From assembly GCF_023705585.1 (NCBI RefSeq), contig NZ_BOQE01000001.1:1377341-1441340 (forward strand): a stretch of DNA of 64,000 nt, written 5' to 3'. The first letter of the stretch is position 1. Every line of letters starts with the position of its first letter. This document shows positions 5,663 to 12,582 of this stretch, one piece after another. The stretch comes from Collibacillus ludicampi. Its GTDB lineage: Bacteria; Bacillota; Bacilli; Tumebacillales; BOQE01. The position numbers were made by a program, and so were the translations under genes. The notes beneath the pieces are model-generated. The model made no database searches and was not told the DNA's origin. It worked only from the letters and a program-made list of their open reading frames with translations.

Positions 5663-6958
5663 TTAGAAAAATGACAACCCCACAGCGAATATAACCCCGG
5701 ATACAAGCAGTGTCGTTACACAGTAGCCCATGATATCGCGAACACCAAGTCCGGCGATCGCCAATGCCGGCAAAGCCCAGAACGGTTGAGCCATGTTCAT
5801 CCACGCTTCTCCGTATGCGATGGCCATCGCGGCTACTCCCGGATCAACCCCCAGCTTGGCTGCGGCGGGCATAATAAAGGGACCTTGTACAACCCAGTGG
5901 CCTCCACCGGAAGGTACGAAGAAATTGATTAATCCTGAACTCAAAAAGGCGAGAAAAGGGAACGTATGCTGATTGGAAATCGAAATAAAAGCGTTAGTGA
6001 TCATCCCGCCGAGTCCCGACGACTCCATCATACCCTGAATCCCCGCGTAAAACGGAAATTGGATGAGAATACCCGCCGTTCCTTTGGCAGCATTCGCTAC
6101 CGCACGCATATAGGATAGCGGTGTTCCATGCAAAAGCAGCCCTGTCAAGAAGAAGATGAGGTTGACGGTGTTGACATCCACTTTAAATCCTTTTGTAGCA
6201 AAATAGTAGACGAGGTATGAATATCCCAGGATGACGATCAAGAGTGTCAAGATACGGCTATTTTCCATTCTTACGGCAAACGTCTTTTCCGCTGGAATCG
6301 CTTCCGTCGGGGCCGATTCCTCTTCTACCAAGAGACGCGGATCAATACTTACTACTTCATGGGGCTTCGGCATCATCATTTTCGTCATAATCGGAAGAAC
6401 GATGAGCAACGCAACAGTAATAAACAAATTGAAGCCTGTGAAGATCGTTTGCGTTAGCGGAATGAGTCCTGCTGTTTTCTGCATCGGGTTGCCCGGTGTT
6501 GCCGCCAATAGCGGTACAGACCCGGAAAAACCTCCGTGCCATGTGAGAAAACCAATGTAGGCGCTTGCAATCAAGAGACGATAATCGGAACCTTTCACCC
6601 GTTTGGCCACTTCTCTAGCAAACAAAGCTCCGACGATTAAACCGAATCCCCAATTGAGCAAGCATGCGACCGCTGAACCTAACGTTACAAGGATGACACC
6701 CTGCGTCGGTGTCTTCGCCACACCGGCTAAACGCTGAAGCCATCGTTTCACCAGAGGAGAACTCGCCAAAGCATGTCCTGTGACCAAAATAAGGCTCATT
6801 TGCATGGCGAAAGCGAGCAGATTCCAAAAACCGTTGCCCCAGAATTGAACCATTTCCAAGGTGCTATGAGGAGTAAAAATGATTCCGGCAACGAACAAGA
6901 TAAGAGTTAACAATAACGCAAAGACGAACGGATCCGGTAAAAATCGTTGTACAATCAT
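5663..6958 (-). CDS. atoE: Short-chain fatty acid transporter, AtoE/TTA family
   Basis: A 431-residue polytopic permease of the AtoE family, which imports short-chain fatty acids. It shows RFLPDPFVFALLLTLILF in TM1, the NWGFGLIVGALFAREVAKR segment, ASAYIGFLTWHGGFSGS, and the C-terminal NFFVPSGGGHWVVQGP motif typical of the family. The ATG at 6958 lies 27 bases inside the open frame. A strong AAGGAGGGG sits just before an in-frame CTG at 6985, which would add the residues KALSNFFT common at family N-termini, so a CTG start is likely. It is a single-gene unit between trhO and the ectoine operon terminator. Confidence 0.9.
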   Translation of the reverse strand: MIVQRFLPDPFVFALLLTLILFVAGIIFTPHSTLEMVQFWGNGFWNLLAFAMQMSLILVTGHALASSPLVKRWLQRLAGVAKTPTQGVILVTLGSAVACLLNWGFGLIVGALFAREVAKRVKGSDYRLLIASAYIGFLTWHGGFSGSVPLLAATPGNPMQKTAGLIPLTQTIFTGFNLFITVALLIVLPIMTKMMMPKPHEVVSIDPRLLVEEESAPTEAIPAEKTFAVRMENSRILTLLIVILGYSYLVYYFATKGFKVDVNTVNLIFFLTGLLLHGTPLSYMRAVANAAKGTAGILIQFPFYAGIQGMMESSGLGGMITNAFISISNQHTFPFLAFLSSGLINFFVPSGGGHWVVQGPFIMPAAAKLGVDPGVAAMAIAYGEAWMNMAQPFWALPALAIAGLGVRDIMGYCVTTLLVSGVIFAVGLSFF

Positions 6959-7157: not shown

Positions 7158-7182
7158 TAAAAAGCCCGCCAGAAGGCGGACC
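7158..7182 (-). terminator. Terminator of the ehu-ect operon
   Basis: On the minus strand GTCCGCCTTCTGGCGGGC forms a compact GC-rich stem-loop followed by TTTTTAG, 15 bases after the ectC stop. Confidence 0.85.
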
Positions 7183-7196
7183 CATCCCTTGCATGA

Positions 7197-7589
7197 TTAT
7201 AATTCCTCCTCAACCAAGGGGTATGCACCGTCCTGGTTGTGAACTTCGCGACCTGTACATGGTGGATTGAACACACAAATCATCCGCAGATCAGTCTTGG
7301 AACGAACACGGTGTTTCTCGTGACCGTTCAGAGTATATAAGGTTCCGGGCTTAAGGGAATAAACCCTACCATTCGAAAGGTCTTCAAGCTCACCTTCTCC
7401 TTCGATACAATACACCGCTTCAATATGGTTCTTATACCACATCGTTGTTTCCGTTCCCGCACGCATGATGGTATCGTGAAGGGAAAAACCGACACCATCT
7501 TTCTTTAACAGAAAGCGGCGACTGTTCCACGTATCAGCAACTACGTTATTTTCCGTGTCGATAATCTCTTCAAGTGTTCGCACAATCAT
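7197..7589 (-). CDS. ectC: L-ectoine synthase
   Basis: The cupin enzyme that cyclises N-gamma-acetyl-diaminobutyrate to ectoine, the last biosynthetic step. It has 130 residues, full length for EctC. It starts MIVRTLEEIIDTENNV and contains the cupin core residues of the family: TTMWYKNHIEAVYCIEGEGE and LKPGTLYTLNGHEKHRV, with Glu/His metal ligands. It is the last gene of the operon, 55 bp after ectB, and ends at a strong terminator. Confidence 0.95.
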   Translation of the reverse strand: MIVRTLEEIIDTENNVVADTWNSRRFLLKKDGVGFSLHDTIMRAGTETTMWYKNHIEAVYCIEGEGELEDLSNGRVYSLKPGTLYTLNGHEKHRVRSKTDLRMICVFNPPCTGREVHNQDGAYPLVEEEL

Positions 7590-7644: not shown

Positions 7645-8934
7645 TCATTCAGTGGAAGATGTTTTACACTTCTTTATACTCTCGTCAAGAATTTCGAACC
7701 CTTTAGTCAGTCCAGCTTCATCAATGATCAAAGGCGGTAACAGCTTGACAACTTCATTTTCGGGTCCGGACGTTTCGATGATCAGTCCCCGTTCAAAAGC
7801 AGCCGCACAAATATTTTCCGCCATTCCTTCCACTCCACACGCAATTCCCTGAATGAGACCTCTTCCGCGCACTTCTCCTTCTAACTCGGGATGGTTTTGT
7901 ACGAGGTCATGTAAGAAATGACGTATTTTCTCTCCCTTATCTTTAATCTCTTTACTGAACGCATCCGTTTCCCAGTAACGGAGTGCCTCGGTTGCCGTGA
8001 CAAAACTTAAATTATTTCCTCGAAATGTTCCATTGTGTTCGCCCGGCTCCCATATGTCAATCTCCGGCCTGATCAACGTCAAAGCCATAGGCAACCCGTA
8101 ACCTCCGATCGATTTGGAGAGACAGATGATATCCGGCTGAATCCCGGAGGGCTCAAAACTGAAAAACGTGCCCGTCCGTCCACATCCAACCTGGATATCA
8201 TCAACGATCAACAAGATCTTCCACCGATCGCAAATGTCCCGGATCCGCTTGAGCCAATGGAAGCTTGCCGCGTGCAGGCCACCCTCCCCCTGGACGGTCT
8301 CGAGGATAATGGCAGCCGGGAGAGAAACGCCGCTACCATTGTCTTCGAGAAACCGTTCGATGAACGAGACTGTATCGATCTCGTCTCCAAAGTAACGATC
8401 AAACGGCATCGTCACGCTGTTTTGCAAAGGGATACCCGCACCTTTACGCTTAAACTTGTTTCCGGAAACGGAGAGAGAACCGATGGTCATCCCGTGAAAA
8501 GCGTTTGTGAAACTCATGACCGTTTCCCGGCCGGTCACTTTACGCGCCAATTTCAACGCGCTTTCCACCGAGTTGGTTCCCGTAGGTCCAGGAAACATCA
8601 CCTTGTAATTCATGCCGCGCGGTTTCAGGATCACTTCGTGGAATCGTTGCAAGAACATCTCTTTTGCCTTCGTTGCCATATCGAGACTATGAGTAATCCC
8701 GTCATTGATGAGATATTGGATCAGTTTTTCTTTCATCCTCATGTTATTGTGCCCATAGTTCAATGCTCCCGCACCGGCAAAGAAATCGATATATTGCTTA
8801 CCCTCTACGTCCCAAAGCTGATAACCGTTCGCTTTTGCAAACAAAGCGGGAAAACTTCGGCAATAACTCCTTACTTCAGACTCCAATTCTTCAAACACTT
8901 GCAACGATGACGGACGATTTTCGATGACCTTCAT
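7645..8934 (-). CDS. ectB: Diaminobutyrate-2-oxoglutarate transaminase
   Basis: A PLP-dependent class-III aminotransferase that converts aspartate semialdehyde to 2,4-diaminobutyrate, the first ectoine-specific step. The start at 8934 ([20 protein letters not shown]) overlaps the ectA stop by 4 bases, which suggests translational coupling; a longer ORF start at 9036 lies inside ectA and is unlikely. Length is 429 residues. Visible motifs are [13 protein letters not shown] near the N-terminus, the PLP-binding aspartate region [15 protein letters not shown] and the Schiff-base lysine in [15 protein letters not shown]. Confidence 0.95.
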
Positions 8935-9446
8935 GCTTTGTAACCTCCTCCTCGTTCTCGCTTCAGAATGGGTCCAATGCGAAACAACTTCTCCTTTTCG
9001 TGGGTTCCCCCTGGGAACAAGTCTTCCTGAAAACACTCCGACACTTCACATCCGGTCCCCAGGTCTCTTGCCAACCCTCGAAACAAAGACTGGGATGGAG
9101 TATTAGACGGACTGATCGTAGTTTCCAGAAAACGTACGTCCTTACACGCTTTCCGAGCAAGCAGTTCTTGTAAAAGAGCTTTTCCCAAGCCTTTTCCCCT
9201 GTGTGAATCATGAACAGCGATTTGCCAGACAAAAATCGTATCCGGACTTGAAGGGGGACGAAAAGAGGAAACAAACCCTGCCATTTGATTCCCGGAAGTG
9301 GCTACTACACACGTTTCCGAAAAGTATTTGCATAAAAGCAAATAGCTGTAAGCGGAATTCAGATCCAGAACACCTGTGTCGCGTACGAGTTTCCAGATCT
9401 TTCGCCCATCTTCCACGTTCGGTTGACGAAGTTGAATGTTTTCCAA
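8931..9446 (-). CDS. ectA: L-2,4-diaminobutyrate N-gamma-acetyltransferase
   Basis: A GNAT enzyme that acetylates diaminobutyrate in ectoine synthesis. The family core is clear: [40 protein letters not shown] (acetyl-CoA loop, RGKGLG), then [16 protein letters not shown] and [12 protein letters not shown]. The only start in frame is TTG at 9446, and it lacks a strong RBS. The strong AAAGGAGG lies 60 bases upstream, before a different reading frame (9451-9507). The 171-residue product is near the normal EctA length, so the TTG start, coupled to the upstream mini-ORF, is plausible. It overlaps ectB by 4 bases. Confidence 0.92.
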
Positions 9447-9450
9447 TTCA

Positions 9451-9507
9451 TCAACGGTACTCAGTTGTGTGACCGAAGTATTCTGAAGTCATTCGTTTGA
9501 GTGGCAT
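9451..9507 (-). CDS. 18-codon mini-ORF before ectA (leader peptide or ectA frameshift)
   Basis: ATG at 9507, seven bases after a near-perfect AAAGGAGG, encodes MPLKRMTSEYFGHTTEYR and then a stop at 9451-9453, only 4 bases before the ectA TTG. It may be a translated leader that couples ribosomes into ectA. Alternatively, the real ectA starts here and one extra base has shifted the frame; removing one base would fuse the frames. The sequence cannot decide between the two. Confidence 0.4.
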   Translation of the reverse strand: MPLKRMTSEYFGHTTEYR

Positions 9508-9552: not shown

Positions 9553-9912
9553 TCACCCCCTTCGAAAACGGCTCAAGAACATTTGCAATCGAGGACTTTT
9601 GGAATTGCCAAAGATCTCTTCCGGCGTTCCTTGTTCCACGATTTGACCACCATCCGTGAAAATCACACGATCGGCCACATCTCGTGCAAAATCCATTTCG
9701 TGTGTGACTAATATCATGGCCATATCCCCTTCAGAGGCGATTCCCTTGATCACTTCAAGCACTTCACCGACAAGTTCAGGGTCTAGGGCCGATGTCACTT
9801 CATCAAACAACATGATTTTCGGTCGCATGACCAAAGCCCGCGCGATCGCCACACGTTGTTTTTGTCCGCCGGAAAGCTCGATCATGCTTGTTGCTCGTAA
9901 AGGGAAGCTCAA
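9553..9912 (-). pseudogene. ehuA: EhuA ATPase, N-terminal half missing
   Basis: This reads as the C-terminal half of a polar amino-acid/ectoine ABC transporter ATPase. The signature [15 protein letters not shown], Walker [15 protein letters not shown] and the H-loop [10 protein letters not shown] are intact. It opens with [12 protein letters not shown] directly before LSGGQ, and the ~130 residues with Walker A and the Q-loop are absent. The ORF overlaps the ehuD stop by 4 bases, so there is no room for the missing part. A deletion seems to have fused the remnant to the ehuD end. Without Walker A it should not bind ATP by itself. Position right after ehuB-C-D supports the EhuA identity. Confidence 0.8.
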
Positions 9913-10616
9913 TATCCCACTTCCTTTCTGCTTCCTATTGGATTTGCCTCTCCGCTCAAATTTGATAACTTTCGATTTAATCGGTACTCTAGACGGCGAA
10001 CCAGAAGCGATGAAGGGTAACTCAAGAGTAGGAACATCAAACCTACGATCGTAAATCCCTCAAGATAGCGAAAGGAGGTAGAGCCGATCATTTTGGCCGT
10101 TTGCAAGATCTCCATTAAAGTGATTGCCGATAGAATCGGTGTCTCTTTAAACATGACAATCAAGTAGTTTCCCAAGACCGGGATGACCGGCGGTATCGCT
10201 TGAGGTACGATGATTCTGCCCCACGTCTGCATTTTTGAAAAGTTCAGAGCGACCGCAGCTTCCCATTGGCCACGAGGGACGGAATCGATCCCTGAGCGAT
10301 ACACCTCGGACAGGTACGAACTATAATGCAATCCTAAGCCGATCACTCCCGCTGTGAAGGGGGAAAGTGAAACCCCAAACACAGGCAGCACGTAAAAAAT
10401 AAAATACAGCTGAACAAGAAGAGGGGTGCTCCTCACAAATTCCACAATTCCGCCTGTAACTAGAGATAAGGGCTTACACGCGGATCTCCTGCCAATCGCA
10501 AGCAAAAGTCCTGCGATCGCTGCTATGAAAAACGCCACGAACGTGGAGGTAACGGTTACCTTTAACGCTTCAAGAAGTTGCGGAACGATGGACCAGGCGA
10601 AATCCCAATCCCACAT
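9909..10616 (-). CDS. ehuD: Ectoine/hydroxyectoine ABC transporter permease EhuD
   Basis: A 235-residue His/Glu/Gln/Arg/opine-type (HEQRO) ABC permease with about five TM helices. The EAA loop reads [25 protein letters not shown], in two blocks. [16 protein letters not shown] and [15 protein letters not shown] are typical of the family. The C-terminal ~18 residues ([18 protein letters not shown]) are not family-like and may be a scar of the deletion that removed the start of ehuA. It starts 3 bases after the ehuC stop. Confidence 0.88.
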
Positions 10617-10619
10617 GGG

Positions 10620-11273
10620 CTATGACCTCCCTGCAGCAACTCTGCGCTCAATCAGGCGAATTCCCCATGTGATGGGGTACGCGAGAATGAAATACATCAC
10701 GAGCAAAAGAGTATAGATCTCGGTGGTTTGGAATGTCGAGGTGCTGAGAATTTTCGCCTGAAAGGTTAAATCTGCAAGTGTAATGAGAGAAACCAAGGCC
10801 GTACCTTTCAGCAATTCAATGAGCAAATTTCCGAAAGCCGGCAACATCATGACAAACGCTTGGGGCCATATGATACATCTCATTCTCTGCCAGGGAGTCA
10901 TGTTCAACGCGATCCCTGCTTCCGTATGTCCTTTTGGTACGGCAAGGATCGATCCACGAACCACTTCTGATCCGTAAGCCCCATAATTGAGCCCCAACGC
11001 AAGTACCGCGGCTGCCATTTTTGGCAATTCGATGCCCAGGATCGGCAGGGCAAAATACAACCAATACAACTGAACCAGCAGGGAGGTTCCGCGAAAAACT
11101 TCTACATAAATAGCCGTTACGCCCCGAATCATTGAATATTTGGACAGGCGGCCAATCCCCGCAAGCATGGCTAAGAAAAGAGCTGCGATCATCGAGAGAA
11201 TCGTAATCTCGAGGGTGATCCCCGCGCCTTTCAAGAGTGGCGGGAGTAAGTCTAGGAACGAATAGATTGACAT
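10620..11273 (-). CDS. ehuC: Ectoine/hydroxyectoine ABC transporter permease EhuC
   Basis: A 217-residue inner-membrane permease, partner of EhuD. The start at 11273 (MSIYSFLDLLPPLLKGAGIT) has AAAGGAG at good distance; a start at 11306 has none. The family segments SLLVQLYWLYFALPILGIEL, the EAA-like loop HTEAGIALNMTPWQRMRCI with WPQAF after it, and LLKGTALVSLITLADL are all present. Together with EhuD it should form the membrane channel that receives ligand from EhuB. Confidence 0.9.
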   Translation of the reverse strand: MSIYSFLDLLPPLLKGAGITLEITILSMIAALFLAMLAGIGRLSKYSMIRGVTAIYVEVFRGTSLLVQLYWLYFALPILGIELPKMAAAVLALGLNYGAYGSEVVRGSILAVPKGHTEAGIALNMTPWQRMRCIIWPQAFVMMLPAFGNLLIELLKGTALVSLITLADLTFQAKILSTSTFQTTEIYTLLLVMYFILAYPITWGIRLIERRVAAGRS

Positions 11274-11378: not shown

Positions 11379-12284
11379 TTACTGTTCGTTTGTACACACT
11401 TGCTCAGCTGTTACATTGCCCGGCAATTCCTGTTTGGTAAATCCGAAGGGCTGAATGATCTTGAATAGTTCACCCGATTCCTTCAGTTTCTGTAACTCAC
11501 GATTGAATGCATCACGGAAGTCCTTGTCTTCTTTGCGGAAAGCCGTTGCCCCGTATCCTCGTGCGCTCTTCCCTTCAATCATCGGTTGTTGAAAGTCCAT
11601 CACTCTTTCAATTGATGGATCTTTCACCGCATCGAGCACCGATTGCAACGAAGGCCCCGTCATCGTAACCACATCCGCTCGGCCTGCTTGTAGTGCGGCG
11701 ACAGCGGAAGGCTGGTCGGGAACCGTTACGATCTGTGCGGCGGAGACTCTCGACTTTTGCAGATAATCAACCTCTATAGCTCCGGTCATCACTGCAACTT
11801 TCACTTTCGGGTTGGCGGAAATATCCCGATAACTATGAATATTCACTACATTCCCTTTCTTCACCGCGATTGCCTCACCGATACTGTATTCAGGGTCGGC
11901 AAATGCCACTTCTTTGCAACGTTCCGGTTTAATGAACATACCCGCCGTGATCATGTCGAAACGCTTAGCTTTCAGCCCGGGTATCAGTGATCCAAATTCG
12001 GTGATCTCACCTCTCATCTCATGAATCCCTAACCTTGTGAGAACCGTACGCGCGACCTCAACCGCTTCACCCGTCAGCTTTCCATCTGGTGTTACATAGG
12101 CGTAAGGTTTTTCATTCGCAAATCCGACGGTCACATATCCTTGTTTTTTTACACGCTGCCAAGTAGATTCCACGGATGTGTCGGAAGAGGTGCCGACACC
12201 CGTCTTTCCTTTGGAGACTCCGCAACCAACCACCGCAGTCATCATGATCAGGGACAGCCCTAAAGTCCTAAATAACTTTTTCAC
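11379..12284 (-). CDS. ehuB: Ectoine-binding lipoprotein EhuB
   Basis: An extracellular solute-binding protein (family 3) anchored as a lipoprotein. The signal peptide MKKLFRTLGLSLIMMTAVVG ends in the lipobox VVGC. The mature part contains GYVTVGFANEKPYAYV, the opening of ectoine-binding EhuB proteins, and ends near IIQPFGFTKQELPG, typical of the family. It is 301 residues, the first gene of the ehu-ect operon, and is placed directly after a riboswitch and terminator. Confidence 0.92.
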   Translation of the reverse strand: MKKLFRTLGLSLIMMTAVVGCGVSKGKTGVGTSSDTSVESTWQRVKKQGYVTVGFANEKPYAYVTPDGKLTGEAVEVARTVLTRLGIHEMRGEITEFGSLIPGLKAKRFDMITAGMFIKPERCKEVAFADPEYSIGEAIAVKKGNVVNIHSYRDISANPKVKVAVMTGAIEVDYLQKSRVSAAQIVTVPDQPSAVAALQAGRADVVTMTGPSLQSVLDAVKDPSIERVMDFQQPMIEGKSARGYGATAFRKEDKDFRDAFNRELQKLKESGELFKIIQPFGFTKQELPGNVTAEQVCTNEQ

Positions 12285-12317: not shown

Positions 12318-12357
12318 ATGAAAAACAAAACCCCCGAGGACAAATACCTACGGGGGT
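12318..12357 (-). terminator. Riboswitch expression platform (intrinsic terminator before ehuB)
   Basis: On the minus strand CCCCCG (12351-12356 complement side) and CGGGGG enclose a short loop and are followed by TTTTGTTTTT. It lies between the c-di-AMP aptamer and the ehuB start (12284). Ligand binding to ydaO-type aptamers generally favours termination. Confidence 0.8.
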
Positions 12358-12392
12358 ATAAAATAAGCGAATACTTTCCCATGAACATCATT

Positions 12393-12532
12393 CACCCCTC
12401 TCTTACACTGCTTACGAAGTTAGCTGACGGATTCGGGCTGAGAGTCGGCCCTACCGGTCATGCGAGACTGCATGCCCGGATTCACCCCAAACGTGGTTCC
12501 CCCGCTTCCCTTTCGGGAATTCAGCATCACAC
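12393..12532 (-). ncRNA. Cyclic-di-AMP riboswitch (ydaO-yuaA type)
   Basis: The minus-strand leader carries the conserved blocks of the ydaO/yuaA aptamer in order: GCTGAAT, AAGCGGGGGAACCA, TTGGGGTGAATCCG, AGGGCCGACTCTC, then CCCGAATCCGTCAGCTAAC and TCGTAAGC. The outer stem closes near GAGAGGGG at about 12395. High c-di-AMP is known to shut these switches off, and the class commonly controls osmolyte uptake and synthesis, which fits the ehu-ect operon that follows. An RNA covariance-model search would confirm it. Confidence 0.9.
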
Positions 12533-12553
12533 AATATTGACTTTTCAGATTTG

Positions 12554-12582
12554 ATTATAATCTTATCCGCAGATAGGGGCAA
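12554..12582 (-). promoter_or_regulatory. Sigma-A promoter of the ehu-ect operon
   Basis: On the minus strand TTGCCC (12577-12582) and a perfect TATAAT (12554-12559) are separated by 17 bases, just upstream of the riboswitch. Confidence 0.8.

Follow-up and report, generated by a model that had tools for sequence, protein, structure and literature searches.

A c-di-AMP riboswitch aptamer precedes a predicted ectoine uptake and synthesis operon with a truncated ehuA in Collibacillus ludicampi

What signal controls the ectoine uptake (ehu) and synthesis (ect) genes of Collibacillus ludicampi is the question raised by the DNA immediately 5′ of ehuB. Among 41 Paenibacillus genomes with ect genes, 37 were reported to carry an ehuBCDA-ectABCD operon (Richter et al. 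2019, PMC6915088); the accessible part of that paper left ehu-ect control in Paenibacillus and its relatives open and contained no mention of a riboswitch or c-di-AMP. The region examined here, termed the window, is a 64,000-nt stretch of the C. ludicampi genome, in which the original prediction had placed a sigma-A promoter, a ydaO-type c-di-AMP aptamer and a terminator at positions 12318-12582. All three elements were found, and the span correctly encloses them. The aptamer (12536..12393, minus strand) matched the curated Rfam covariance model RF00379 (c-di-AMP, ydaO/yuaA) with 97.6 bits versus a gathering threshold of 38 (E 7e-22 in the window), and the match extended over the full model (1-134), which was the check that the original prediction had suggested. 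The invariant columns of the RF00379 core (GGGG-GAAUCC and CCGUCAGCUAAC-UUCG) were conserved, and the paired arms covary. This aptamer was the sole Rfam family above threshold in the 64-kb window; thus, no second riboswitch was found beside it by Rfam in this stretch. A sigma-A-type promoter, TTGCCC-17-TATAAT (12554..12582, minus strand), matched 10 of 12 consensus bases and ended 17 nt before the aptamer; promoter-like sites were detected 11 times in the whole region versus 6.9 expected, so the promoter call rests mainly on its position. Between the aptamer and the GTG start codon of ehuB at 12284 was an intrinsic terminator (12320..12357, minus strand), the predicted expression platform, composed of a hairpin (12357-12330) of the sequence ACCCCCGUAGG-uauuugu-CCUCGGGGGU followed by the U-rich UUUUGUUUUU, with a dG of about -17.

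The genes behind this leader were identified by use of NCBIfam equivalog models for EhuB, EhuC, EhuD, EctA and EctB and a subfamily model of ectoine synthase for EctC, and all six proteins exceeded the cut-offs. In order on the minus strand these are: ehuB (11379..12284; ectoine/hydroxyectoine-binding protein, TIGR02995, 307.5 bits versus 190.9); the permease genes ehuC (10620..11273, with an ATG and Shine-Dalgarno sequence at 11273 in a frame open from 11306; TIGR03004, 262.5 versus 196.95) and ehuD (9909..10616; TIGR03003, 306.5 versus 205.2); and, beyond a remnant of ehuA, ectA (8931..9446, from an uncertain TTG start; diaminobutyrate acetyltransferase, TIGR02406, 201.2 versus 120.6), ectB (7645..8934; diaminobutyrate-2-oxoglutarate transaminase, TIGR02407, 684.7 versus 552.2) and ectC (7197..7589; ectoine synthase, NF009806, 199.8 versus 128). 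The nearest solved structure to EhuB was 2q88, given as the ectoine-binding protein of Sinorhizobium meliloti in the accessible parts of PMC5924519 and PMC6915088. EhuB residues E58, Y61, F97, F117, R122, I170 and E171 matched by spacing the pocket positions of the Paenibacillus lautus protein, as listed in the accessible part of PMC6915088, which suggests that the ligand residues have been kept. From ehuB to ectC the intergenic gaps were 105, 3, -4, 106, -4 and 55 nt, the last -4 being the overlap of ectA and ectB, and a terminator-like hairpin of 9 pairs with a 4-nt loop and T tail (7162..7183, minus strand) closed the unit after ectC. With a promoter 5′ of ehuB, a terminator after ectC and no strong terminator between the two, the layout is that of a single operon, and the genes are predicted to be cotranscribed; the gaps of 105 and 106 nt (ehuB-ehuC and ehuA-ectA) may be wide enough for internal promoters or for processing. 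Thus, ehuBCD and ectABC do form one predicted unit as had been proposed, though the truncated ehuA within it had been overlooked. A riboswitch that governs ehuB or the ehu genes only, with ectABC regulated separately, would be consistent with the 106 nt separating the ehuA remnant from ectA and with the aptamer-ehu arrangements that lack ect in some Clostridia and Desemzia; however, this appears unlikely, as neither a minus-strand terminator-like site between ehuA and ectA nor a promoter-like site just before ectA was found, and the accessible part of PMC6915088 presents the Paenibacillus ehu-ect genes as one operon.

The ehuA open reading frame (9553..9912, minus strand, 119 aa) was found to cover only positions 145-250 of the 252-position EhuA profile, corresponding to the last ~106 residues (TIGR03005, 172.6 bits versus a cut-off of 345.4). 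Likewise, when a complete EhuA was compared with the window by tblastn, the match was limited to residues 175-280 of the query, which was derived from an aptamer-ehuBCDA-ectABCD locus in another family of the same order (G006). The half of the protein with the Walker A motif and Q-loop is therefore gone, and the Walker A half was absent from the window in every frame. Elsewhere in the genome, no ATPase scored above the EhuA cut-off (best other matches ≤328 bits versus 345.4), and at least two of these other matches are located near a separate binding-protein match and hence look like the ATPases of different amino-acid importers. Of the components of an Ehu importer, EhuB, EhuC and EhuD were accordingly present and a complete EhuA with Walker A was not. 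With EhuA truncated and no replacement above the cut-off, ectoine import in this strain has probably been lost or relies on a borrowed ATPase, and the proposed riboswitch control of import together with production does not apply to the genome as sequenced. At the other ehu loci for which the ehuA region was covered, the EhuA match was near full length (the sequence of L106 ends before ehuA and was outside this comparison). This difference could reflect an assembly or sequencing error in an operon that is actually complete; we regard such an error as improbable, since the assembly, in 7 contigs, reaches a completeness of 99.87%, the remnant overlaps ehuD by 4 nt with no ambiguous bases, and the ~160 missing codons are a large loss for a base-calling error.

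The start of ectA was also unusual. A Shine-Dalgarno sequence and start codon (AAAGGAGGTTGATTGAG-ATG at 9507) precede ectA and open a frame of 18 codons (9453-9507, minus strand) that ends in TGA TGA and is out of frame with EctA; this may result from a frameshift, or the frame may be a short leader ORF with coupling to ectA. The EctA frame itself offers only the TTG at 9446 and no clear in-frame start with a Shine-Dalgarno sequence, so synthesis may also be impaired. Apart from this uncertain start, ectoine synthesis looks intact as judged from the genes. The truncated EhuA without a replacement above the family cut-off, its near full-length counterparts at the other covered loci, the out-of-frame position of the strong Shine-Dalgarno-ATG pair and the absence of ectD, which nearly all ectABC-bearing relatives have, would together suit a decaying operon, in which the riboswitch is real and the locus is losing function, such that the switch now controls little. 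This explanation is possible but somewhat doubtful given that ehuB, ehuC, ehuD, ectB and ectC are intact, that the ligand residues of EhuB appear to be retained, and that the leader has an intact promoter, aptamer and terminator.

We favor the reading that a c-di-AMP riboswitch gates the ~5.4-kb transcription unit extending on the minus strand from the promoter (12582-12554) to the terminator-like hairpin after ectC (7183-7162), with a rough probability of 0.85, and consider this regulatory reading well supported as a prediction. The aptamer and terminator together predict an OFF switch, the mode by which most known c-di-AMP riboswitches act through termination (PMC9960051, PMC9337991). When c-di-AMP is high, with K+ and turgor sufficient, the aptamer would fold with c-di-AMP bound, the terminator ahead of ehuB would form and the operon would be off. 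After an osmotic upshift c-di-AMP would be expected to fall; at low c-di-AMP the upstream strands of the aptamer could capture the terminator left arm by base pairing, and antitermination would allow RNA polymerase to transcribe ehuBCD, the ehuA remnant and ectABC, such that ectoine is made. In relatives with an intact ehuA, a similar leader would switch synthesis and import jointly. Fold prediction, with an energy model that includes neither ligand nor pseudoknot, gave a probability of 0.91 for terminator formation in the full leader, and in the minimum-energy fold of the intermediate that lacks the right arm of the terminator, the left strands of the aptamer were paired with CCCCCGUAGGUAU, the terminator left arm. 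The energetic advantage of this antiterminator was not unusual (of 300 left-arm shuffles, 55 did equally well), and the predicted pairing in the window is suggestive only. The antiterminator is clearer in the Paenibacillus ehu leaders, where the 3′ end of the aptamer, UCAGCAGUGGAUGGGUC, can pair with the terminator left arm GACCCCCUGCUGGCGG. A conserved hairpin after the Paenibacillus aptamers (GACCCC-TGCTGGCGGAGCTATG) was considered as a separate new RNA element and rejected; as it pairs with the aptamer 3′ end and recurs after an unrelated aptamer, at L054, it is best taken to be the expression platform. That aptamer (L054, 5256-5400) lies at a non-ehu locus, before a gene pair encoding DUF1611 (DgcN-like) and ornithine-racemase-like proteins, and its leader has the antiterminator/terminator design of the Paenibacillus ehu leaders.

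These features were compared with known systems. The P. lautus ehu-ect operon, as described in the accessible part of PMC6915088, shares with that of C. ludicampi the order ehuB-C-D-A-ectA-B-C, the combination of synthesis and import in one unit and the EhuB ligand residues, but differs in that ehuA is truncated and ectD absent in C. ludicampi. The kimA (ydaO) and ktrAB riboswitches of Bacillus subtilis (Nelson et al. 2013, via PMC9960051 and PMC7288161) likewise belong to RF00379, have a downstream terminator, serve a target in osmotic balance and are predicted OFF switches; their target is potassium uptake, whereas here it is a compatible-solute operon. Predicted OFF control of osmolyte synthesis by termination is also common to the tandem Na+/c-di-AMP riboswitch before lysine 2,3-aminomutase in Dehalobacter (PMC9337991). 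There, and likewise in the Paenibacillus ehu leaders, pairing is possible between the P1 right arm of the aptamer and the terminator left arm; in the window, by contrast, it is the left strands of the aptamer that are predicted to pair with this arm. The Dehalobacter system further differs in its osmolyte and its tandem Na+ aptamer, no second riboswitch having been found by Rfam in the C. ludicampi leader.

A scan for relatives of EhuB was performed in named genomes, and the resulting 80 loci were examined with a survey covariance model built from 10 aptamers. An aptamer was found directly upstream of ehuB at 23 of these loci, with 3 further weak matches. A search for the core motif concurred at 22 of the 23 (L129 being called by the models), and Rfam confirmed all seven of the strong cases that were rechecked (L059, L064, L088, L096, L099, L104 and L129). 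The weak matches before ehuB in Desulfosporosinus (25-28 bits; L065 8741, L066 8712 and L071 8743) are possibly degenerate or variant aptamers and were left uncounted; Rfam reported nothing above threshold for the match at L065. When ect-bearing ehu loci were considered, with the window and G006 included, the aptamer was directly before ehuB in about a third (17 of the 56 that could be scored) and absent from this position in 39. For L059 and L063 only part of ect was observed, and a single MAG accounts for both L093 and L094, on separate contigs. Aptamer-bearing loci before ehu-ect included those of P. glucanolyticus, P. solani and P. barengoltzii. The aptamer was also found before ehu without ect in 9 further entries, some of Clostridia, two of which (L049 and L068) have identical EhuB and are apparently the same genome. 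Three control loci with ehu among apparent catabolic genes (L048, L050 and L051) had no aptamer. On the EhuB tree, presence of the aptamer required 7 changes, at least 4 of them forced by starred branches, and thus the aptamer has been gained or lost several times. In an alignment of 39 distinct aptamers from ehu and neighboring loci, 94.3% of the modeled pairs were standard, and their covariation was 0.346 compared with 0.166 when shuffled and at most 0.093 when slid; the alignment was fitted to the structure and therefore leans toward the modeled pairing.

Reviews place c-di-AMP riboswitches before genes of osmoprotectant synthesis and transport (PMC7288161, PMC9960051), and one before an osmolyte gene is described in PMC9337991. 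No term for riboswitch or c-di-AMP was found in a large review of ectoine (PMC5924519), and the searchable text of the literature yielded no link of either to ehu-ect, although a listing in the primary surveys (Block 2010, Nelson 2013) is possible. The view that this association is not commonly noted was thus upheld for the riboswitch-ehu-ect link in that text, while the ehu-ect operon and c-di-AMP riboswitches of osmolyte genes were already published. What is new, an earlier listing being possible, is ehu-ect as a recurrent target in Bacillota for a known riboswitch class. The aptamer at about a third of the loci would provide a direct and testable link from a messenger of K+ and turgor to the production of ectoine, an industrial product. 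The usual targets of this riboswitch, genes of ion transport and of the cell wall, would thereby be joined by a full osmolyte pathway. A wider and speculative interpretation, which we put forward only tentatively, is twofold: (i) c-di-AMP may, by way of RNA, directly restrain the import and synthesis of compatible solutes in Bacillota, a brake that was acquired repeatedly and that spans ectoine (ehu-ect), osmolytes of the beta-lysine type (KamA family) and neighboring betaine uptake; and (ii) EhuBCD of C. ludicampi may borrow the ATPase of another system or be reduced to ectoine binding, the switch being left to govern synthesis.

The C. ludicampi genome has nine RF00379 aptamers in total, eight besides that of ehu-ect. 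Two proteins with a DAC domain are encoded, and the strain therefore probably makes c-di-AMP. One aptamer (L003) precedes a KimA-like amino-acid permease and others (L002, L005, L006 and L052) precede LysM-3D or NlpC/P60 cell-wall proteins; the genome thus has an ordinary c-di-AMP regulon plus ectoine. Three strong aptamers had no recognizable target gene, one being followed by small unassigned ORFs (L001) and two (L007 and L008) by no co-directional ORF of at least 70 aa in the next ~700 nt. In Paenibacillus, c-di-AMP aptamers adjoining the ehu-ect locus were observed ahead of the gene of a radical SAM aminomutase of the KamA type (L070 7216-7352, L073 3130-3268, L081 8483-8627 on the minus strand, L086 15325-15462 and L101 11899-12038), with the KamA family confirmed for L070 and assigned to the other four by similar sequence; at L070 this gene points into ehuB. 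Further aptamers were located 3′ of ectD and preceded a gene that encodes a ~140-160-aa protein (L056 15363, L061 10315, L073 15870, L081 15285 and L083 7037). The proteins of L056 and L081 had no Pfam or NCBIfam match, and at L061 the gene is followed by that of a glycine betaine BCCT transporter. Within the ehu cluster of a Syntrophothermus MAG (L132), a c-di-AMP aptamer was detected between ehuD and ehuA (5804-5941).
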